This document shows positions 1 to 51,843 of a stretch of DNA of 64,000 bases, one piece after another. Under the pieces are notes generated by a model. That model worked only from the letters and a program-made list of their open reading frames with translations. It ran no database searches and was not told the origin of the DNA. The position numbers and the translations under genes were made by a program. Within the stretch, counting starts at the first letter, position 1. Every line of letters begins with the position of its first letter. Where the stretch lies: assembly GCF_037893015.1 (NCBI RefSeq), contig NC_133658.1, forward strand, positions 427,581,890 through 427,645,889, read 5' to 3'. The DNA is from Macrotis lagotis. Its lineage: Eukaryota; Chordata; Mammalia; Peramelemorphia; Peramelidae.

Positions 1-178
1 CTGTGGAACTTCTAAGTTGTCATGGACTGGGATATTGTATCACTCGGTCTTTCTATGGGTTCTGCCCTGCTAAATTTTGGCTAGAGTCATAATTTGACAG
101 CTTTTGGAGTTTTTGGAGGAATGAGTTCCCCAGGAATTCCTGTCTTCATGCCGCCATTTTGGTTCTGCCCTCCAGGAT
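1..178 (-). mobile_element. L1 5' UTR, minus strand, runs off left edge
   Basis: Read on the minus strand, the segment starts near 178 with 'aaaatggcggcatgaagac' and continues through 'gcagaacccatagaaagacc' towards 'gacaacttagaagttccac'. This order matches the start of a marsupial L1 5' UTR, and the same motifs are seen, more decayed, at the 5' end of the L1 at 34.25 kb. The rest of the element lies outside the window. The two short open frames over 87-353 are chance frames. Confidence 0.6.
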
Positions 179-2630: not shown

Positions 2631-3269
2631 GCAGAGAGGGCTCTGCCTAGGCATGATTAGAAAACTCACTTTCTTTTCCCTGGTCTGCTACTGACTCACC
2701 CAGAATGCCTGGGCCAAGTTTTCTGGGCTGAAGACTTTCTCCTTAGGTAAAGCCAAGGAAAACAACAGACTTTGGTGCCTTTACCTCTTTTTCCCCCATG
2801 GATGTTAATGAGATTAACCGGCTAAGGTGGGTAAGGTGCTTTGCATTTCTTGGCACCTAATTGTCCTAACCCCAAGTATTAAGCCACCTGATTGAGAAGG
2901 TTGATTAAGGTCAGAAATTCTGCCCTGTGCTATGAAATTCTTTTGGTTCTGGGTAGAGAATGGATTCAATGACCTGATGTGAAAAGATAGTCTGCAGTTA
3001 CATCTCTAATTCTTAAGTGGGCTGTAAAACCATTGTCAAAATAGAATTGTCTTTAAACCTTATTTTTCAGATATCAGTTTTAGAGTCTAGCACTCCATAA
3101 AGATTCAAAAATCTTGTAATCTAAAATTCACTCATATGATCTTTAAAAAAATAAGTTGTAGAAGAAAAACATCCAAAATATCCTTTGCCTTTCTCCCCCC
3201 AAAAAGGCAAAATGTCAATCTATTTCATGTCCAGGGTGCATATGCTTCATAAGACAGCTAGGTAGCAGA

Positions 3270-4670: not shown

Positions 4671-5389
4671 TATACCTCTGAAATCTCATAGCACTCTGTT
4701 TCCTCCTCACCAGTGTTTCAACATCTGCTGTCTTTAATGCTTTGGTAAGTTAAGATCTTATCAATAAGATCATCCTCTCCAATGGGGGCATAGCATCCTG
4801 TGCAATTCATATGCAACACCATCAACTCTCCAAAGAGTAAACTGCCTAATCCACAGGGCTAATCTTCTTATTCTTTTCATAATTCACGGATGGAAATGTA
4901 GCACTCAGCCTACCTCTCTTCACAGCCATATAGGTTCTTGCATCAGAGTGGCAAGTGTCTACAGAAGGGAAACAGCTGGGGGGAGGGGCTAACTTGCCAA
5001 GCATATTCCCCTGCTGTATTTAAGGAGCCTTGAGATCTTTTCTTGACCTTATTGACTTAACAGGAGAATTGAACAGGCTTGGGTCAGAAAAACTAGCCCC
5101 TGGGCGTGGTGAAGGAAAGAGTTTAGACAAAGAGTTAGGCTTAGGGTCAGAGAGCTTGAACAGGAGAGAGAACAGGGTGTGACTGTGAGTCAGTGCAGTG
5201 TGTTTGGGAGGCCAAGAATGGGAGTCCTGGTGGCTGGTGCCTTCCTTTGAGAGAGTGGGTGCTATGGTGAGATGAAAGCATGCACGCCTTGATTGAGCTT
5301 CTAGCCCACTCTGTGACTATGTTCAGATTCTGGATCTTTATGCAAAAGTATTGTTGCCAGTAGGAAGGGGAAATTATAAAATATCACAG
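4671..5389. other. Unique, comparatively GC-rich interval
   Basis: From about 4910 to 5340 base composition rises and a TATA-like 'tgtatttaagg' occurs near 5016. I recognise no repeat family and no coding frame. It could be unique regulatory DNA or an old element whose family I cannot name. Confidence 0.25.
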
Positions 5390-5570: not shown

Positions 5571-6202
5571 AAAAAGAGTCCAAGAGACCAATTAGAGTCT
5601 GAATATCTACTTGACATATTTCTGAGTTCCCTGTGGTCAATGAATAGAAAGAGAGACAGAGACAGGAAAACAAACAGAGACATAGGCAGAGACAAAGAGA
5701 CAGAAAGAGAGCCTCTGGGATACCTCATTCTGATATGTGAGATCTCCCCTTAGCTTGCCAAGCATGAGGTCCCCACACCACTTCAAGACTACAGCCACTG
5801 TCTAACCTCTTCTTCCAGGTCCCTTTAATGTCTTTATCTTCCTCTCATGTTTCTCTCCATTCATTAGCCTTTTTGCTTGTATATATCTATTTAATTCTCT
5901 TTCATCTCTACATAATTAGAATCTCCAAAGTAAGGTAAGATTGAAATGAGTGGCAATGAGTAAATATGTTTGTTTATGATACCTTGAGTATGTCATTTCT
6001 AGAACAGAAAGCATGCAGTTTGTCAGACCTTCAGTCTCACAATAAAGCAATGGCAGGGGCTCAAGCATTTGTTGAGATGCATACTCCTGGAATTCTAGGT
6101 CTCTGTCCTTATATTTGATGGTTGTTGGGGCGATTCACAAGGACAAAGTAGGAGGGAGATAGGCAATTATTGAGCAACTGGACTGTGACACTACAGAAAC
6201 AC

Positions 6203-34859: not shown

Positions 34860-35860
34860 AATGACAGTATATCAGATCATAAAAAACTATGATTGTGACA
34901 GGAAAAATCATGACACAAACTCAGAAGTAGATCATGGAAGAAAGCCTCAAAGGAAAAAAAACATGTGAATGCACATAAGTGCAATAAGAAAAACTGGAAG
35001 AGCTTAAAAAATTATTTTCAAAATCAAATTAGAGTGATAGAAGTAAAATAGACAAAGAAATATAAACAAAGGAAGAAAATTATAAAAAGAAAACATTTTA
35101 GAAAGAGGAACCAAAAAAATACTGAGGCAAATAACATTTAAAAAAATAAAACTGGCCAAATAGAAAAGAAGATACAAAAGTTCATTGAAGAAAATAATTT
35201 CTTAAAAATTTAGAATTGGACAAATAGAAGTTAATGCTTCCCTGAGACACCAAAAAGCAAAAACACAAAATCAAAAGAATGAAAAATAGAAGAAAGTGGG
35301 AAATATCTCAGCAGAAAAACAACAAACTATAAAATAGATCAAGGAGAAATAATTTAAGAATTATGTGACTACATGAATGCCATGATCAAACAAAGAACCT
35401 AGTCTACAAAGTTCAAGAGATTATCAAGGAAAACAGCCCCCAATATTCTTTGACCCTTGGATAAAACAGAAACTAAAAGAATCCATCAATCATCACCTAA
35501 AGAAGTTCCCCAAATGAAAACTCTCAGAAATATTATTGTAAAATTTGTAGAACTCCCAGGTCAAAGAGAAAACTCTTCATCAGAAAGAAACCAGTCATAT
35601 ACCATGGAGCCACAGGGAGTATCATGTAACGTTTAGCAACTAACATAATAAAGGAAATTGCGATAATCTGGAGATCAAGGGAGCTAAAATTGCAACCAAG
35701 AAATAATCTTCCCAGCAAAATTTAATATTATCCTTAGAGGGAAAATGAATATTTAATGGAATAGAGAGCTTTCAAGTATTTCTGATGAAAAGTTCAGAGC
35801 TTAATTGAAAATTTGACTTTCAAGTACAAGACTCAAGAGAAATAAAAAAGCTAAACATGA
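34860..35860 (+). pseudogene. L1-D ORF1 relic
   Basis: ORF1 encodes the coiled-coil RNA-binding chaperone of L1 particles. Recognisable are 'gagcttaaaaaattattttc' (coiled-coil part), 'gaaatatctcagcagaaaaa', 'caccaagag'-like RRM text around 35340-35400, and the C-terminal block at 35530-35830 ('gtagaactcccaggtcaaag', 'gcaaccaagaaataatcttc', 'tcaagtatttctgatgaaaa'), comparable to the better-preserved ORF1 at 45.7 kb. Numerous stops and frameshifts. Confidence 0.75.
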
Positions 35861-36166
35861 AAGAGAACTCATGAGGGACTTTTTTAAAACCTTTTTTATA
35901 TGGGAAGATGATAGATGCAACTTCTAAAAATTTTAAGTTATTAGTCCAAAGGAAGGATTCTACATAGAAAGAGTGAACAGGAGTGAATTGATTCTGTTGG
36001 GTGATGTTAAAATAATGTATAAGCAAAAAAAGAGCAATGTCCTGAGAGAAGGGAGAGATGAAGAATGGAGATTATTATCTCATATAAAAGAAGCATTCAA
36101 TAAAGAGATTTTAGTGTGGAGGAAAGGGGGAGGCAAGCAACACTTAAACCTTACTCATCTAAATTG

Positions 36167-36298
<132 letters not shown>

Positions 36299-36472
36299 TT
36301 AAATACACATGTGTGCATACTCAACTGGTAATAATAAAAAAATCTATATTACCCAAAAGGGAAGTAGGAAGGGAAAAGGCTAAGATAAATAAAAGTTGAT
36401 AAAAGGGAGGGTGGATAAAAGAAGGCAGTAGTCAGAAGTGAAACAACTTTAGAGGAAGAATAGGGGTGGGGG

Positions 36473-36473
36473 G

Positions 36474-36528
<55 letters not shown>
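36473..36528. repeat. (GA)n microsatellite with G-run
   Basis: A run of G precedes about 26 GA units; also inside the L1-D spacer. Confidence 0.95.
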
Positions 36529-36531
<3 letters not shown>

Positions 36532-36569
36532 TAAATAGAAGAAAGTAGAATAGAAAGAGATGTATAATT

Positions 36570-38630
36570 AGTAATCATACCTGTAAATGTGAATGTGATG
36601 AACTTACCTATAAAATAGAAGCAGAAAACTAAATGGATTAGAAACCAGAATCCAACAAAATGTTGTTTACAAGAAATACATTTGAAACAGCGACATACAG
36701 CATTAAAATAAAGGACTGGAGCAGAATCTATTATGTTTCACCTTAAGTTTAAAAAAAAGTAAGGATAGAAATCATATTCTTAGAGTAAATTAAAGTAAAA
36801 GTAGACCTAATTAAAAGGGATACATAGGAAAACTAAATCTTGCTTAACAGTTACCATAGATAATGAAGTAATGTCAACACTAAACATACTGTGCCCAATG
36901 ACATAGCATTCAGATTCTTAAAGGAAAAGTTAAATGAATTACAGGAGGAAATAGTAAAACTAAACTAGGGGATGACCTCATTCATCCACTTTCAGAACTA
37001 GATAAATCTATTAATAAAATTAAAAATGAAAGAAGTCAAAGAGGTGAATTGCATCGTAGAAAAGTTAAATATGATAAACTTCTGGAGAAAATTGAATGAG
37101 AATAGAAAGAAGTATACTTTTTCTCAGCTGTACATGTTCTTTCACAAAAATTGTGTGTTACAGAATAAAAAACAGTCAAACACAGAAAGGAGAAATATTA
37201 AATGTGTCTTTTTAGGAGAATAATGCAATAAAATTACATACAAATTACATATAATTCACCATGGAAATGTAGATTAATAATTATTTGGAAGCTAAATAAT
37301 CTAATTCTAAAAAATGAATGGGTCACAGAACAAATAATTGGAACAATCAATAATTGCATTAAAGAGAATTACAATAAAATGACAACATTCCATAATCTGT
37401 AGGATGCAGAAAGTAGAAAATTCTCTAAGTGCTAACAACAATTAACAAAAAGAAAAAGCAGATAAACAAATTGCAGTTAGAAAAAGAACAAATTAAAATT
37501 CTCTAATTAAACACCAAAAAGGAAATCCTGAAGATCATACGGGAGATTAATAAAATTAAAAACAAAAAACATTAAACAAAAAATAAAAATAAGAGACAGT
37601 ATTATGAAAATATCAATAAAATAAATGAATCATTGGTTAACTTAGACTTTTTGAGGCAATTAAGTATAAGCGATTTGTCAGAATCACACAGTCAGTAAAG
37701 ACAGGATCAGCACTCTATTTTATTCACCACCTAGTTAATTCCCCAAGTTAATTTGATTTTTAGAAAAGAAAGGGAAAAAAATCAAATTTCTAGTATCAAA
37801 AATCAAAATAATGAATGCATTGCAAATGAAAATAAAATTAAAGCAACTATTAAAACTTTATTACTCAATTATAAGCTAGTAAATCTGACAATCTAAGTGA
37901 AATACATAAATATTTACAAAAATATAACTACCCAGATTAGTAGAGGAAGAAATAGAATACTTAAATAATCTCATTTTAGAAAAAGAAATTGAAAAGCCAT
38001 CAATGAATCCTCTAAGAGAAAATCCTCAGTATCAAATGAATTTATAAAGGAATCTAACTAAACATTTAAGAACAATTAATCCAATACTAAATAAACTATT
38101 TGGAAAAAATAAAAAGTCCTACCCAATTCCTTTTGGGATGCAAAAATGGTTCCTAAACCAGGGTAAATAAAAAACTAAACATGAAACCTATAGATGAATT
38201 TATCTGAGGAATATTAATGCACAAATTTAAATATTAAGAAGGAAATTACAGCAATATATACAAAGATCATCCACTATGACTGGATGGAATTTATAACAGA
38301 CATGCAGGACTAGTTCAGTATTAGGGAATCTCACCATAATTGACCAGATGGATAGCCAAAATAAAAAAAAAACATATGATTATATCAATAGACATAGAAA
38401 AAGTATTTGATAGAATGCAATGTTTATTCCTATTAAAAAGCTAGAAAGCAGAGAAATCAATAAAACCTCTGTTAAAGTGATAAGTAGGACTTATCTAAAA
38501 CCAAAAGCAAGCATTATTAATAATGGTGATAAGCTTAAAGTTTTACCAATAAAATAAGAAGTGAAGTAAAGATACCCATTATCACCACTATTTTTCAATA
38601 TTTTGATAGAAATGGTAACTATAAAATAAA
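36570..38630 (+). pseudogene. L1-D ORF2 relic (endonuclease and part of RT)
   Basis: ORF2 supplies the endonuclease and reverse transcriptase. The start 'gtaaatgtgaatgtgatgaa' encodes the NVN(G)MN block. 'aaccagaatccaacaaaatg' and 'gttgtttacaagaaatacat' give the QET-H block. RT blocks occur near 38130-38170 and 38390-38440 ('atatcaatagacatagaaaa' gives SIDIEK). Sequence downstream of the 'PLSPLLFN' block is missing. Many stops. Confidence 0.8.
37648..37743 (-). repeat. Small MIR-type SINE inside L1-D ORF2
   Basis: 'gatttgtcagaatcacacag' and 'gcactctattttattcacca' are antisense MIR. The L1 text 'ttggttaactta' before it restarts as 'agttaatttgat' after it, so a short TSD is plausible. Confidence 0.6.
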
Positions 38631-43007: not shown

Positions 43008-43985
43008 ATGAAGAAAGGCCAGAGAAAAGGGGGTCCATAGAAAAATTCCTAGAACATAAAGATCCTAACTCAGAGAGATCTAGAACTTCTGAGGAGAATA
43101 TGATTTGTTCTCCAGCACAGAAAGACTTTCTTGAAGAAATCAGGAAGGAGTTTAAAAATCAATTTGAAAATCTGGAAAAAAGAAACCCAAGAGAAGATTA
43201 GCACCTTCCAAAGAGAAAACAATTCCTTGGAAAATACAACTGGAAAAATGCAAAAATAAAATAATTCTCTCAGAAGCTCAATTGGCCAAATGGAACACTC
43301 TTACAAAAATAGAATCGACCAACTGGAAAAGGAGTTGCAAAAAGGTAAATGAAGAAAATTCCTTCCCCCAAAAAGAATAGAGTCTATGGAAACCAATGAC
43401 TTCATGAGACAACAAGAAGCTGTTAAAAAAAGCCAAAATGTAAAATGTAAAATACCACATCAGAAAAACCACAGACCTCAAGAATAGATTGAGGAGAGAC
43501 AACCTAAGAATTATTAATCTTCCAGAAAACACTGAAGAGAAAAAAAGCCTTTTCTTAATATTTTGGGATTTAGTGATGGAAAACTGTCCTGATATCATGG
43601 AACCAGAGAGCAAAATCATTATTGAAAGAAAACATCAATCCCCTCCAGAAAGGGATGCCAAAATGAAAATGCCAAGGAATATTGTGGCCAAATTCCAGAA
43701 CTATAGATAAAAGATAAAATCCTGCAAACAGCCAGAAAGAAACAATTTAGATACCAAGGAGCCACAGTAAGGACCTGGCTGAATCAACATTAAGGGATGG
43801 AAGGCCCTGAAATGTGATATTCTGAAATGCAATAAAACTTGGAATATAGCCAAGAATCCACTACCCAGCAAAATTTCCAGGGCAAAATATGGACATTTAA
43901 ATGAAATAGGAGACTTCCAACTTTTCCTGATGAAATGAACAGAGCTTAATAGAAAATTTGGACATTAAACAGGAGATTCGAGAGA
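43008..43985 (+). pseudogene. L1-A ORF1 relic
   Basis: ATG at 43008 gives MKKGQRKGGP before a stop; the sister copy at 60393 reads MKKDQKKRGSIEKFLEGK, so an extra base has shifted the frame. A surviving 73-codon piece (43489-43710) reads RRDNLRIINLPENTEEKKSL and then ENCPDIMEPE and RNIVAKFQNYR, the RRM-to-C-terminal-domain part of ORF1. The C-terminal 'ctacccagcaaaatttccag' is present. Inactive. Confidence 0.85.
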
Positions 43986-44030
43986 TACGTAAAGAGGTAA
44001 AACATGGCGGGGGGTTTAAAAGAAAAAAAA

Positions 44031-44262
44031 CTGCTATCCAATAAGATGAAATTGGGAGAAAGATTTAATAACTCTGAAGAAATGTAACACTATCACAGAG
44101 ACAATATTTAGCCAGAAGAAATGGACAATCATCACTTATTCATGAAACTGCTATCCAATAAGATGAAACTGGCTCTATTCCTACCTGGGAGAAAGAATCT
44201 AATAACTGGATAATTGTAATACTATTAGAGAGAATATACTTAGCCAAAAGTGATGGAAACGC
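44031..44262 (+). repeat. 117-bp tandem duplication in the L1-A spacer
   Basis: 'ctgctatccaataagatgaa' occurs at 44031 and again at 44148; the units end with similar 'acttagccaRaag' text. L1-C has one unit (61427-61545). Confidence 0.88.
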
Positions 44263-44960
44263 ATTAGCTTTCTGTGACTCAGACAGCAAGATTTAAAAAC
44301 ATCTCCTTAAAAGGGGGGACAGTAAAGCGATGGGACAAGGGAGAGGATTGAATGGGGTCAATCTCATTACATTAAGAGATATAAAAGACCTATTGCAATA
44401 GAGGGAAAGAAGAGAGTAGATGAGAACCGTCTGAATCTTACTCTCATCAGATTTGTCTTAAAGTTAACATACATATACTCAGTTAAGAAACTTATCTTTC
44501 AAGTACTTAAAGGGGGAAAAGGGAGGGGGGAGGAAAGGAGGAACCAACAGAAGGAAGGGGCAAAGGGAAAAGAAAGGGGGAGGGGGGCTGGATATCAGAA
44601 GGCAAATGCACTGAAGGTGGCTGTATTCAGAAACAAAATACTGGGGAATGTGAATAAAGTGAAAAAAAGGGAAAACTACAAACAGAGGGAAGATAACATG
44701 GAGGGCAATAAAAAGTAATTATAACTTTGAATGTGAATGGGATGAACTCTCCCTTAAAAAATAAATGAATAACAGAATAGATTAAAAACCAGAATCCTAC
44801 AATATGCTGCTTACAGGAAACTCATTTTAAGCAGAGAGAGATAAATATAGAGTAAAGGTAAGACGTTGGAGGAAAATATATTTTGCTTCAGCTGAAGTAA
44901 AAAAAAGCAGGGGAATCAATCCTTATCTCAGACAAAACAGCTGAAAAAAGAGATATTGTT

Positions 44961-44972
44961 AAAAGACATAAG
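44961..44972. repeat. HAL1-B target-site duplication, left copy
   Basis: 'aaaagacataag' preceded by 'tt', giving the TT/AAAA site favoured by L1 endonuclease. Exact match at 48141-48152. Confidence 0.92.
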
Positions 44973-45688
44973 GAAGCAGGGCAGGAGCCAAGATGGCGAC
45001 AAGAGAGCAACGTCTCTTAGAAGCTCTCTAAAAATCTTCGATACTAAGGACTCTAACAAAACTTTCGAGAGACAGAACCCACAGAGGGACCCAATGAGGC
45101 AGTTCTCCTACTCAAAGATACCTGGAAAATTGCAGAAAGGCTCTGCTCCCCGGGGTTGGAGGGGCAGCCTGCCAGAGCAAAAGAACTTCAGACTCCCAGA
45201 GGCAGCCCCAGGGCGCTGGGAGCTGCAGCTCACAGCAGTGGGAGAATCTTCTGAGCTATGCCCTGGGAGAACACCAGGCACAAATTGGGGGAACAGCAGG
45301 GGACCTCTGCCAGAGTGAGCACGTGAAACCCAGCCCTCAGGGCACACAGCAAGCCCAGATCTAGGAACAAAAGCAGGCAGAGCCAGGAAACAGGAGCCCC
45401 CAGGGCATGAGCCCATTGAACCTAGGGAGGGGAGTGAAGAGAGACTGCCCAGATCTGCCCCTGGAACAGGACTCTGGGGCTCTGACCAAATTCAGATCCT
45501 GATCTCAGTCTAGGGCCCCCCCCCACAGAACAGCAGGACCGCTGCCCTCCACCTCAGCCCCATGGCAGAGGGGGGCGCTTTTGGTCATTCACAGACAAGG
45601 AGGGAGGACAGAGCCTCTCACATGGAGACCCTTGTGGGAGTGTCCCAAAAGCTCAGGAAGCAACCAAATCCAGGCTCAGGCTGGGAAA
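44973..45688 (+). promoter_or_regulatory. HAL1-B 5' UTR, internal promoter region
   Basis: Much richer in G+C than the surroundings, with 'ccaagatggcgac' at the start, a YY1-like 'aagatggcg' core as in many L1 promoters. Frames of about 100-120 codons on both strands (44956-45318 and 45108-45416) reflect the low stop frequency of GC-rich DNA, not genes. Promoter activity is inferred. Confidence 0.6.
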
Positions 45689-46777
45689 ATGAGCAAGCAG
45701 AGAAATAAGAGGAACACCATAGAGAAATAGTTTGCATATGAGCCCAAGAAGGATCAAAATACTACTCAATCTGAAGATGAGGAAGCACAAGCTCCTGCAT
45801 CTAAACACTCCAAGAAAAACATAAATTGGGCTCAGGCTATGACAGAGCACAAAAAAGACTTTGAAAATCAAATAAGGGAGTAAGAAGAAAAACTGGGAAA
45901 AGAAAGGAGAGAGATGCAGGAAAAACATGAACATGAAGTCAGCAACTTAGTCAAGGAAATCCAAAAAAATGCTGAAGAAAATAGCAGGCTAAAAACCACC
46001 TTAGGTCGAATGGATAAAACAGTTCAAAAAGTTATTGAGGAGAAGAATGCTTTAAAAAGCAAAATTGGCAAGATGGAAAAAGAGATAAGAAAACTCTCTG
46101 AGGAGAACAAATCCTTCAGACAAAGAATGGAACTCGGGGAGATTGATGAATTTACAAGAAACCAGGATTCATTACTTCAAAACCAAAAAAATGAAAAATT
46201 AGAAGAAAATGTGAAACATCTCATTGACAAAACAAAAGACATGGAAAACAGACTTAGGAAAGATAATTTAAAAATTATTGGAACACCTGAAAGTCATGAT
46301 CAGGAAAAGAGCCTTGACATCATTTTCAAAGAATTACTACAGGAAAATTGCCCTGATATTCTAGAAGCAGAGGGCAAAATAGAAATGGAGAGAATCCACC
46401 AAGCCCCTCGAGAAAGAGATCCCAAAAAACCAACCCCTATGAATATTATAGCCAAGTTCCAAAACTCCCAAGTCAAAGAGAAAATATTACAAGCAGCCAG
46501 AAGGACACAGTTCTAATATCATGGAGCTGCAGTCAGGATCACACAGGACTTAGCAGCAACTATATTGGAAGCTTGTAGGGCTTGGAATATAATATACCGG
46601 AAGGCAAAAGAGTTTAGAATGCAACCAAGAATCAACTACCCAGAAAGGCTGAATGTTCTCTTCCAGGGAAAAAGATGGACTTTCAATGAACCAGGGGAAT
46701 TTCAAATGTTCCTGTTAGAATGGCCAGAGCTGAACAGAAGGTTTGATCTTCAGATACAGGATTCAGGTGAAGCATAG
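45689..46777 (+). pseudogene. HAL1-B ORF1, single frame with three stops
   Basis: ORF1p is an RNA-binding trimeric chaperone. ATG at 45689 gives MSKQRNKRNTIEK; one frame runs 362 codons to TAG/TAA at 46777. Residues about 65-185 are a Lys/Glu-rich coiled coil (KLGKERREMQEKHEHE, LVKEIQKNAEEN, KSKIGKMEKEIRKL). The RRM follows (NRLRKDNLKIIGTPES, CPDILEAEGKIEMERIHQAP), then the C-terminal domain (MNIIAKFQNSQVKEKILQAA, RAWNIIYRKAKEFRMQPRIN, WPELNRRFDLQIQDSG). In-frame stops at 45728 (codon 14), 45881 (codon 65) and 46514 (codon 276); no frameshift found. So the copy is inactive but recently coding. Confidence 0.92.
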
Positions 46778-47280
46778 AGATTGGAGGAGAAGGGGAAAAT
46801 ATGAGGGACTTAATCTTGATGAACTGCATGTATTCCTGCATAGAAAAATGATACTGATAATACTCATATGAGCCTTCTCAGTTAATAGAGCAGGTAGAGG
46901 GAGCTTTTATAGTTGAAGCACAGGAGAAAGCTAAATTTGAAGATAAAATATGGTGTAAAAATAGAGTCAATAGAAAAAAGGGAAATGTAATGAGAGAAAG
47001 AAAAAGGAAAGGGGGAATAGGCTAAGATATTTTGTATAATAAGATTTTTCTTTACTACAATGAGCTATTGCAATGATATAGAAGGGGGGAAGGCAAGGGG
47101 GAATCTTCGCTCTCATCAGAGGTGGCTAGGAGAGGAAACAGCATATATACTCAATAGGGTATAGACATCTGGAGTAAGAAGAAAAGGGGGGACAGGGGGA
47201 AGGGGGGATGTGAGTGATGGATGAGAGGAAGGACCATAGGAGGAGGGTGGTCAGATATAACACATTTTCCTTTTTACTTC

Positions 47281-47410
47281 TTGCAAGGGGCTGGGATTGG
47301 ATGGCCTGTCCAGGACCATAGGGCCAGGTGGATGCTGGGCCTAAGAGGTGGTAGGGGGGCTCAGGGCCTCTTGGCCCCAGAACCAGGGATCTGTCTGCTG
47401 CGCCACTCAG
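47281..47410 (-). repeat. SINE-like module 1 in the HAL1-B 3' region
   Basis: 'cttgcaaggggctgggattg' to 'ctgtctgctgcgccactcag' follows the antisense WSINE1 order from tail to head, but strongly diverged and G-rich, without a flanking duplication. Confidence 0.65.
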
Positions 47411-47636
47411 ATACGCTACAGCAGAGTCAGAGTGAAAGGAGGGAGAAAATATAGTACATGGTAGTGGAGAAGTACAAATGGAGGGATTTGCAATCAGCAA
47501 TGGCAATGGTGGAAAAATATTGAAGTAACTTTTGCCATGGACTTATCATAAAGAATGTGATCCACCCACGACAGAGTTGTTGGTGTTGGAACAAAGACTG
47601 AAGCACATTTTTTATTATTATTATTATTTGGGGGAG

Positions 47637-47770
47637 GTGCAGGGCAAATGGGGCTAGGTGGTCTGCCTGGAGCCACATAGCAGGGTGATCTTTTGGTGTC
47701 TGAGGCCAGATTTGGACCCAGGTGCTCCTGGATCAAGGGCCAATGCTCTGTCCACCACCCAGCCACCCCT
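47637..47770 (-). repeat. SINE-like module 2 in the HAL1-B 3' region
   Basis: 'cagggcaaatggggctaggt', 'tctgaggccagatttggacc' and 'tccaccacccagccacccc' follow the antisense SINE order, preceded by an (att)n run. Confidence 0.75.
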
Positions 47771-47820
47771 GCTATTATTACTATTTTATTTTATTTTGGG
47801 TCTTTTTTTCTTTTTTTGGT

Positions 47821-47953
47821 TTTTTGCAGTTCAGTGGGGTTGGGGTGGCTTGCATGTCACATGGCTGGGTGATTGTTGGGTGTATGGGGTTGTATATGGG
47901 CTCCAGTACTCCTGGCTCCAGGGCTGGGGCTCTGTCCATTGTGCCACCTGACC
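47821..47953 (-). repeat. SINE-like module 3 in the HAL1-B 3' region
   Basis: 'tttttgcagttcagtggggt', 'ccagtactcctggctccagg' and 'gtccattgtgccacctgacc' follow the antisense SINE order, preceded by a T-rich run. Confidence 0.75.
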
Positions 47954-48140
47954 ATACCTACAATTATTACTATTATTTTTTTTAATTTTAATTTTTTTTC
48001 TCTCCCCTTTACTTTATCACCCAACTGAGTCTATATTTGTGAGGGGAGGTGGTATTCTGTTTACTCTTAAACAAGAATATTTTATTAATGTATAAAAAAT
48101 TATTTGTACAAAAAAGAGGATAAATAAATATTTTTTTTAA

Positions 48141-48152
48141 AAAAGACATAAG
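48141..48152. repeat. HAL1-B target-site duplication, right copy
   Basis: 'aaaagacataag', identical to 44961-44972; L1-A ORF2 resumes here. Confidence 0.92.
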
Positions 48153-49333
48153 CAAGGAAACTATGTCCTCCTAAAAGGTACCACAAAAAATAAAGTAATT
48201 TCAAAACTAAATATGTATGTACCCAGTAGTGTAGCATCCAAATTCTTAGAGGAGAAATTAAAGGAGTTACATGAAGACATAGATAGCAAGACTCTACAAG
48301 TGGGAGACCTCAACCTCCCACTCTCAGATTTAGATACATCTAACCATAAAATAAGCAAGAAGGTACTTAAGGAGGTAAATAGATTGTTAGAAAGCCTAGA
48401 CATGATAGACTTATGGAGGAAATTGAATGGGGATCGAAAGGAATATGCTTTTTCTGCAGTACATAGCTTACACAAAAACTGACCATATACTAGGGCATAA
48501 AAACCTAATAATAAATTATAGAAAAGCAGAAATAGTGAATAAATCTTTCTCAGATCATAATGAATAAAAATCATATGCAATATTGAGCCAGGGAGATATA
48601 GACCCAAAACTAATTGGAAACTAAATAACCTCATTTTAAAGAATGAGTGGATCAAACAACAAATTATAGAAAGAATTAAGTATTTTATCCAAGATAATGA
48701 CAATAATGAAACATGCAAAAAGCTATGGGATACAGTCATGGCAGTTGTCAGGGAATATATTATATCTTTAAATGCTTACATGAATAAATTAGAGAAAGAG
48801 GAAATCAATTAACTAAATATGCAACTAAAAAATTAGAGAAAGAACAAATTAAAAACCCCCAATTAAATACCAAATCAGAAATTCTAAAAATTAAATGATA
48901 AATTAATAAAATTAAAAACAAGAAAACTATTGAACTAATAAATAAAACCAAGAGTTGGTTTTATGGAAAAAAAATAAAATTGATAAGTCTCTGGTTAATT
49001 TGATTAAAAAGAACGAAAGAAGAAAACGAAATTGTTTAGTATCATAAATGAAAAAGGTGAACTCACCACCAATGAGGAGGAAATTAAAGTAATAATTTGT
49101 AATTATTTTGCCCATCTCTATGCCAATAAACATGATAATCGAAGTGAAATGGATGAATATTTACAAAAGTATAAGTTGCACAGGTTGAATAATGAGGAAA
49201 TTAAATACCTATATAACACTATCTCAGAATAAGAAATCCAACAAGCCATTCTTGAACTGCCTAAGAAAAAATCTCCAGGGCCAAATGGATTCACAAGTGA
49301 ATTCTATCAAGCATTTAATGAAGAATTGGTCCC

Positions 49334-49337
<4 letters not shown>

Positions 49338-49408
<71 letters not shown>
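49338..49408. repeat. (TA)n microsatellite inside L1-A ORF2
   Basis: About 30 TA units to 49397, then gtatatatataaac. In L1-C the matching place (63640) reads 'caattctatataaactc', so the array grew from a short TATA seed. Confidence 0.95.
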
Positions 49409-50080
49409 AACTCTTTGGAAAAATAGGTGAAGACAGAACTCTGCCTAACCCTTTCTATGACACCAATATGGTGCTGATACCTAAACCAAGAAGAGTTAAA
49501 AGAGAGAAAGAGAAGTATAGACCTATCTTCCTGCTGAACATAGATGAAAAAATCTTAAATAAAATCTGAGCAAAATGATTACAAGTTATCACTAGGATAA
49601 TACATTATGACCAAGTAGGATTTATCCCAGGAATGCAGACTTGGTTCAATATTAAGAAAACTGTCAGTATAATTGTTTATATTAATAATAAACTTTTCAG
49701 AAATAGTATGATTATATCAATAGATGCAGGAAAAAAGCTTTTGACAAAACACAGCACTCATTCCTACTAAAAACACTAGAGAGTGTAGGAATAAATGGAT
49801 TGTTCCATAGGATAATAAGCAGTATCTATCTGAAGCCATAAATAAGCATTATATGCAATGAGGATAGTCTAGAGGCATTCCCAATAAGATCAGGGGTAAA
49901 AGAAGGATGCCCACTGTCACCACTACTATTCAATATTGTATTAGAAATGTTAACTTCAGCAATATAAGAAGAAATTAAAGAAATTAGAATTGGGAAAGAA
50001 GAGACAAAACTCTCACTCCTTGAAGATGACATGATGGTATACCTAGAAAATCCCTAAAATTCATCTAAAAAACTACTAGA

Positions 50081-50245
50081 GGGGTTTCTAGGTGACACAG
50101 TGGATAGAACAGCAACCCTGGAGTCAGGAGTACCTGAGTTCAAATTCGACCTCAGACACGTAATAATTACCTAGCTGCGTGGCCTTGGGCAAGACACTTA
50201 ACCCAATTTGCCTTGCAAAAACCTAAGAAAAAAATAAAATAAAAT
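50081..50245 (+). mobile_element. WSINE1-like SINE inside L1-A, with TSD
   Basis: 'gtttctaggtgacacagtgg' to 'ttgcaaaaacctaagaaaaa' plus an (aaaat)n tail. The 14-base duplication 'aaaaaactactaga' is exact at 50067-50080 and 50246-50259. Confidence 0.95.
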
Positions 50246-51843
50246 AAAAAACTACTAGAAATAATTAGTAACTTTAGCAAAGTTGCAAAATATAAAATAA
50301 CCTCTCATAAATCCTCAACATTTCTATATATGGCTAGAAAATTACAGAGAAATCCCATTCAAAGTAACTTCAGACAATATAAAATACCTGGGAGTCTACC
50401 TACCAAGGCAGATTCATAAACTTTTTGAAAACAATTACAAAACATTTCTCATGCAAAGAAAATTAGATTTAATTAACTGGGGAAATATCAACTGCTCATG
50501 GATAGGGCAAACTAATATAATAAAAATGACAATTCTACCAAAATTAAACTACTTGTTTAGTGCCCTACCAATTCCAAAAAATTACTTTAATGAGTTTTAA
50601 AAATATTGTAAGTAAATTTATATGGATAAATAAAAAAGTCGAGAATCTCCAGGGATTTTATGGGGAAAAAAGTACAAAAGAAAGTAGCTTATCCCAACCA
50701 GATCTAAAATTATATTATAAAGCATCATTCAATAAAACTATCTGATATTGGCTAAGAAATAGAGTGGTGAACCAATGGAATAGTCTAGGTGTAATAAGAG
50801 GAAATGATTACAGTAATCTACTGTTTGATAAACCCAAAGAGTCCAGTTTGGGGGATAAAAATTCTCTTCAATAAAACTGTTGGGAAAATTGGAAGTTAGT
50901 TTGAAAGAAACTTTGATTAGATCAATACCCCACACCCTATACCAAGATAAGATCAAAATGGGTGCAGGATTTAGACATAAAAAATAATATTATAATCAAA
51001 CTAGGCCAATATGACCAGAAAGGACAGCAATCAATGTTGGAAGGGATGTGGGAAATCTGGGACACTAATACATTGTTGGTGGAGCTGGGAACTCATTCAA
51101 CATTTCTGGAGAGCCATTTGGATAACACCCAAAGGGCAACAAAAATGTGCATACTCTTTCCTCCAGCAATACCACTACTGGGTCTATATCCTGAAGAGAT
51201 CATGAAAAAGAGTAAAAACATCACTTGTACAAAAATATTAATAGCAGCCCTGTTAGTGGTGGCAAAGAATTGGAAATTAAGTGAATGTCCATCAATTGGG
51301 GAATGGCTTAATAAACTGTGGTATATGTATGTGATGGAACACTATTATTCTATTAGAAACCAGGAGGGATGGGAATTCAGGGAAGCCTGGAGGGATTAGC
51401 ATGAACTGATGCTGAGCGACATGAGCAGAACCATAAGAACATTGTATACCCTAACAGCAACATGGGAGTGATGATCAACCTTAATGGACTTACTCATTCC
51501 ATCAGGGCAACAATCAGGCAAAATTTTGGGGTATCTGTGACGGAGAATACCATCTGTATCCAGAGAAAGAATTATGGAGTTTGAACAAAGACCAAAAGTC
51601 ATTGATTTAAAAAAAAACACAATGTTATCTTACTATGTAATTTTACTGTCTCTTACTCTTTATTTTTCTTCCTTAAGGATATGATTTCTCTCTCATCACA
51701 TTCAGCTTAGATCAATGCATACCAGGGAAATAATGTTAGAAACTAACAGACTTCCATCTTGGGGGAGGGTGTAGGGAAGCAAGATTAGGGGGAAAATTGT
51801 AAAATTCAAAATAAATAAAATCTTTCTTTTATAAGCAAAAATA

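Follow-up and report, generated by a model that had tools for sequence, protein, structure and literature searches.

The element and its insertion site

The 64,000-nucleotide window analysed here contains, at positions 44973-48140, an L1 derivative that has ORF1 only, is flanked by an exact 12-bp target site duplication (TSD), and was inserted at a TT/AAAA site within the ORF2 of an older L1. The two forward-strand TSD copies (AAAAGACATAAG, at 44961-44972 on the left and, as an exact copy of the same 12-mer, at 48141-48152 on the right) are the longest match between the element's two edges, and a TT precedes the left one. The host L1, which shares its strand with the inserted element, consists of a left part at 43442-44960 (C-terminal half of ORF1, spacer and start of ORF2; forward strand) and a right part at 48153-51825 (remaining ORF2 and 3' UTR; forward strand, right end approximate); its ORF2 also contains a (TA)n tract at window positions 49337-49408. 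When the flanks were joined with a single TSD copy, they aligned without gaps, at 82-87% identity over 147 bp, to the empty site in all four L1 copies given (L1b in the window, L071, L068, and L069), which establishes that the boundaries of the element are real. The 12-base duplication and TTAAAA-type site of the first-pass annotation were thus confirmed, and its claim of exact boundaries stands with one refinement: because alignable family sequence begins at about 44979 (element position q7), the first 6 nt of the element may be non-templated.

The 5' UTR and ORF1

The plan of the element comprises a 5' UTR, ORF1, an L1 inter-ORF spacer, and the remnant of an L1 3' UTR, together with three SINE-like blocks in antisense. 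The 5' UTR (44973-45688, forward strand) is GC-rich as first annotated, with 56.8% GC compared with 37.5% in ORF1, and is depleted in CpG. Near the putative transcript start it carries a YY1-site-like motif, CAAGATGGC (44989-44997, forward strand), which resembles the YY1 site at the 5' end of human L1 and presumably has a like role here. Many 5'-complete copies begin with a similar GGAGCCAAGATGG-type sequence.

The single ORF1 frame (45689-46777, forward strand) has the 362 codons plus stop and the mere three in-frame stops originally reported, at codons 13, 64, and 275, and Pfam recognised two domains in it: an RNA-recognition-like domain (PF02994, Transposase_22; 46262-46504, forward strand, E 1.1e-9) and a C-terminal dsRBD-like domain (PF17490, Tnp_22_dsRBD; 46568-46675, forward strand, E 1.5e-4, at the curated cut-off). 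The final codon, 363 (46775-46777), is TAG in the window and TGG in 26 of 40 copies, with the frame then continuing for 8 codons. The ORF1p of another copy, L033, is 370 AA long and matches the solved L1 ORF1p structures 2ldy and 2yko, and in 11 of 39 copies ORF1 still runs for 355 AA or more without a stop.

Structure of the 3' region

The "1.36-kb 3' region" of the first-pass annotation is present, but it is not a single unit, being made up of spacer, L1 3' UTR remnant, and three SINE-like blocks. The retained L1 inter-ORF spacer (46778-47267, forward strand) is followed by SINE-like block 1 (47275-47417, antisense; recognised by profile, best E 5e-13, and by alignment), by the joint of the spacer end with the L1 3' UTR remnant (47418-47612, forward strand, with 3' UTR homology over its right part), by blocks 2 (47613-47771, antisense) and 3 (47772-47955, antisense), and by a terminal 3' UTR part (47987-48122, forward strand) held in common with the older half-L1 (HAL1) copies described below, in which none of the three blocks occurs. 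An AATAAA polyadenylation signal (48123-48128, forward strand) adjoins a short A-rich tail, and the arrangement is similar in other copies.

A profile of the post-ORF1 sequence matched L1 ORF1-ORF2 spacers and the reversed control gave no match; the spacer of L070 did not match this profile and lay outside the later six-spacer test. In that test, with the old copies added to the profile, all six L1 spacers given were matched (E 5e-7 to 4e-4; best reversed control 0.094), five of them in one common part of the profile and that of L1c in a neighbouring, overlapping part. The 3' UTR part in turn matched sequence directly after ORF2 C-termini, with E below 0.1 in 5 of 13 stretches and reversed controls at 4.4 and up. 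The best of these matches were in L072 (2.9e-9), where an ORF2 C-terminus lies upstream (31% identity, E 2.5e-6), and in the host L1 (3.4e-6). Both the spacer and the 3' UTR scores are modest and fall partly within purine-rich DNA. Since these remnants match their L1 counterparts, the HAL1 is best read as an L1 minus ORF2 with the spacer and 3' UTR kept.

Blocks 2 and 3 resemble SINE copies of the window at 68-76% by blastn, and the likeness of block 1 to these SINEs appears by profile and alignment only. In a scan for tRNA-type boxes, every block contained an A-box-like site (1 mismatch), but only block 2 a B box (3 mismatches); with boxes this weak, the SINE assignment rests on the similarity to the window SINE copies, and we do not adopt the label CORE-SINE/MIR-like for the blocks. 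Rfam returned nothing up to E 0.1 for positions 44900-48200. It is also conceivable that the 3' module is no L1 3' UTR with later SINEs but was captured from SINE-containing host DNA by 3' transduction; the 3' end is unlike those of the L068-type L1s in direct comparison, and its last piece, used as a profile alone, matched neither the window's other L1s nor L068-L071. We regard this origin as improbable, however, because the left part of the module matches sequence after L1 ORF2 C-termini and an older subfamily has the module without the SINE blocks.

An ORF1-only family

A search of the 3.66-Gb genome with the whole element was scored for the best 40 places, namely the query and 39 others, all of which were fetched. 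These 39 copies are 87-92% identical to the element, and 26 of them are near full length. In 19 of them the TSD is exact over 10 bp or more, and none that long was found in 20; as a control, wrongly matched flanks of those 19 copies gave a repeat of such length in 1 of 278 pairings. A-rich tails occur in many copies, that of the window copy being short. Element position 3044 or beyond is reached by 37 copies. The other two, L030 and L032, lie on different contigs and both end at position 2595 before A-rich sequence, possibly through early polyadenylation between SINE blocks 1 and 2. A second HAL1 3'-region piece directly follows the L015 copy (L015:4183-5124), and pairs of HAL1 copies with equal or near-equal scores lying 105-164 kb apart (C3:127767370 and 127931587; C5:44033774 and 44138634) suggest segmental duplications.

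The first-pass annotation saw no trace of ORF2 and proposed a search for copies with the same ORF1-3' region junction, adding that copies with ORF2 before this 3' region would make the window copy a deletion derivative. In all 39 fetched copies, ORF1 runs into the same 3' region without ORF2, over a span exceeding that of the query by at most 73 nt. A search with the 3' region only was likewise scored for the best 40 places, and the upstream pieces, taken for the best 20 of the 39 others, all run into ORF1 (20/20), that of L053 with an internal deletion. Thus no ORF2 between ORF1 and the 3' region was found in any of the 39 copies or 20 upstream pieces, both sets having been chosen by similarity to the element. 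Where the 3' region itself is similar to the L1s given, the similarity is confined to spacer, 3' UTR, SINE, and low-complexity sequence and does not extend to ORF2, in agreement with the original observation.

Across the 3.66-Gb genome, a 30-mer from just after ORF1 has 22,846 sites at up to 3 mismatches, compared with 0 for its reversed control. As a check less biased by similarity than the fetched copy sets, linkage was counted around an exact spacer 17-mer, which has 10,433 genome sites (whole count). An ORF1 motif lies about 75 bp upstream at 5,713 of these sites (55%) and SINE block 1 begins about 445 bp downstream at 4,818 (46%), with both reversed controls at 0. In the 40-copy set the 17-mer is present in 32 copies, of which 28 (88%) have the upstream and 26 (81%) the downstream link. 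Because the two links drop off similarly, there is little room left for a large ORF2-bearing subpopulation, and the element is not a private deletion but one old copy of a large ORF1-only family.

These counts also bear on whether each copy could have arisen separately, by deletion of ORF2 from a full-length L1 of the family, with no ORF1-only source lineage. The spacer and 3' UTR remnants do suggest an origin by some loss of ORF2 from an L1, but recurrent deletion is difficult to reconcile with 39 copies of one ORF1-spacer-3' region layout that stay within 73 nt over the query span, with identical joints in dozens of copies spread over several contigs, with a spacer/tail joint common to two old copies, and with the lack of ORF2 in every sampled copy. 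The HAL1 3' module is, moreover, missing from the L1s L068-L071 in a direct comparison. No L1 combining an ORF2 with the HAL1 5' UTR came to light, the stretches of L068-L071 at hand starting about 60-170 nt before their open ORF1 frames. We give independent deletion almost no credence.

An older subfamily and the L1s of the same genome

A single ORF1-only lineage is also consistent with the presence of older, SINE-less HAL1 copies. The 5' end of one occupies window positions 1-170 on the reverse strand and continues to the left of the window (L073:4084-6760, minus strand); its 5' UTR, ORF1, spacer, and tail are arranged as in the young copies, with no SINE blocks. L083/L085 has the same SINE-less form, and at about L073 4-374 lies a second HAL1-like 3' end without SINE blocks, interrupted by an L1 3' end. 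The best 40 places in a search with the L073 HAL1 (itself included) are mostly 76-84% identical to it, and among the matches listed six others can be aligned unbroken for 2.4 kb or more, their target spans being no longer than the query span and hence holding no SINE-sized insertions. In a midpoint-rooted tree of the ORF1 C-terminal half with 26 rows, the old and young HAL1s (10 rows) share one side of a branch with support of 98/95 that was recovered in 99% of 200 bootstrap trees. Because the older subfamily has the same plan minus the SINE blocks, the lineage appears to have lost ORF2 first, kept multiplying, and taken up SINEs later. A composite query with block 1 and without blocks 2 and 3 found no place contiguous across the empty joint among the 40 listed (source copy included), in a ranking that favours block-1 matches, and six listed places had a second piece about 330-365 bp away, like three-block copies.

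Among autonomous L1s, those of the L068 type resemble the element in the C-terminal half of ORF1 (71-72% identity) and in having a homologous spacer and 3' UTR remnant, but they possess an ORF2, and the N-terminal half of their ORF1 is far more divergent from the element (0.34-0.53 per codon position). The 39 other places listed for L068 are 92-97% identical to it and the 39 listed for the young HAL1 L033 are 91-96% identical; with identity ranges this similar, candidate ORF2 donors of similar age existed. The window also contains an old L1 with both ORF1 and ORF2, L1_c (35142-38617). In the tree its ORF1 sits with HAL1 (92/89), though on a long branch, and upstream of it there is a very weak match to the 5' UTR profile (E 0.049). 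L1_c is possibly a relative of the parent L1; we did not adopt it as the parent itself. The element had been described as late in the insertion order, which is borne out against the host L1 (tree end branches of 0.033 for the window copy and 0.11 for the host) but not against some other L1s, whose end branches are even shorter (0.007-0.018), indicating that L1 activity went on too.

Constraint on ORF1

Divergence from the 40-copy majority is lowest in ORF1, at 1.4-4.9%, with 2.8-8.4% in the 3' region and 2.9-11.6% in the 5' UTR. The dN/dS comparison of ORF1 across copies proposed at the outset gave a divided answer. Non-CpG singletons looked neutral (N/S 389/117, 21 stops, omega about 1.2) and variants in two to three copies were intermediate (70/32, 6 stops, 0.8), whereas non-CpG variants shared by at least 4 of the 40 copies were constrained (27/21, 0 stops, 0.47; Fisher p 0.003 against singletons). 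A codon-position test agrees, with 27 of 48 at position 3 as opposed to 180 of 530 (p 0.003). When the young majority is compared with each of two old copies, divergence at position 3 likewise exceeds that at positions 1+2, at 0.32 against 0.20 (p 4e-5) and 0.31 against 0.18 (p 7e-6). Given the plan shared by old and young HAL1, both comparisons would postdate the loss of ORF2, and if ORF2 was indeed lost before the two groups split, this suggests that ORF1p was useful to the element itself.

It might be argued instead that the HAL1 RNA was a passive passenger, with the L1 donor supplying ORF1p as well as ORF2p and no use of ORF1 in cis. L1-dependent SINEs carry no ORF1, and the signal weakens when CpG sites are included, with N/S of 35/22, 2 stops, and omega about 0.58 for ORF1 variants in at least 4 copies. 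A passenger would not readily account for constraint that is seen in shared variants and not in singletons, or for its appearance both in shared variants of the young family and in the old-to-young change, each after the inferred ORF2 loss, and we judge this explanation unlikely. The earlier proposal that the element used its own ORF1p in cis is accordingly supported by the constraint in shared variants, although not proved.

A model for the amplification of the family

Overall, we are confident that the element is best explained as a copy of a HAL1 family, one that most likely relied on its own ORF1p and on ORF2p supplied in trans by L1. Such a HAL1 would be a non-autonomous LINE composed of a 5' UTR, ORF1, an L1 inter-ORF spacer, and a short L1-type 3' UTR, with ORF2 probably lost in an ancestor of both old and young copies, judging from their shared plan and the tree. 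The element's own 5' UTR would have driven transcription of its RNA, and the AATAAA would have served for polyadenylation, as the intact 5' ends and A-rich tails suggest; the RNA would have made ORF1p, to which the ORF1 constraint points, and been bound by it. The endonuclease and reverse transcriptase of a contemporary L1, the presumed donor, would then have copied the HAL1 in trans into TT/AAAA-type sites. The lineage would have persisted long enough for an older SINE-less subfamily to arise and then a younger one, derived from a source that had acquired three antisense SINE-like blocks within the 3' UTR. Trans mobilisation by L1 ORF2p is most likely in view of the TT/AAAA site, the TSDs, and the L1s of similar age; we also infer an own promoter and the cis use of ORF1p.

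Rather tentatively, since we would put it at somewhat less than even, we suggest that ORF2 was lost just once and that the family became a long independent replicator with a selected ORF1p, outlasting successive L1 donors. Its most prolific phase may then have come after the three antisense SINEs were acquired, perhaps because antisense insertions lengthen the RNA without internal A-runs.

Comparison with known systems

In mammals, HAL1 elements are described as L1-derived, encoding only ORF1p, having a poly(A) tail and TSDs, and depending on L1 reverse transcriptase and endonuclease (PMC5753468, PMC5322556); both papers cite the HAL1 study of Bao and Jurka 2010, and HAL1 families are reported to have arisen several times independently (PMC5753468). 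The element is similarly L1-derived (ORF1p domains, structure matches, spacer and 3' UTR homology, tree), encodes ORF1p only, as does its family (39/39 copies, 20/20 upstream pieces), has TSDs and an A-rich tail (12-bp TSD here; at least 10 bp in 19/39 copies), has amplified as a family of its own (22,846 spacer sites; 4,818/10,433 linked to block 1), and presumably depended on L1; the ORF2 with endonuclease and reverse transcriptase that marks an autonomous L1 is absent. It appears to differ from known HAL1s in that its 3' UTR carries three antisense SINE-like blocks and its family has at least two age layers, and from human HAL1 in number, with nearly 2,100 copies given for the latter (PMC5322556) as opposed to the 22,846 spacer sites here. 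In the PMC3183009 table of families below 1% divergence, the opossum entries are L1, SINE, ERV/LTR, and mariner, with no HAL1, and the wallaby entries are two LTR families, while guinea pig and marmoset do have HAL1 entries. The absence of HAL1 from the opossum and wallaby entries of that table fits with the element's family being no longer among the youngest, provided that the genome is that of a marsupial, as its repeat signatures suggest.

We therefore place the element in a large HAL1 family within the already known half-L1 kind, one possibly already in Repbase or Dfam, whose notable features are its size, SINE-loaded 3' UTR, and two-layer history. One genome here provides a series of HAL1s without SINEs, HAL1s with SINEs, and a possible relative that has ORF2, which shows how a half-L1 family is assembled and shifts over time and suggests that half-L1s can form a large genome component. 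Its thousands of copies are also material with which to test cis action of ORF1p without ORF2p. SVA-like composites offer a second parallel, being, like the element, non-autonomous, driven by L1, and equipped with SINE-derived pieces. The element differs from them, however, in keeping a constrained coding ORF1, its SINE pieces being late insertions into the 3' UTR.
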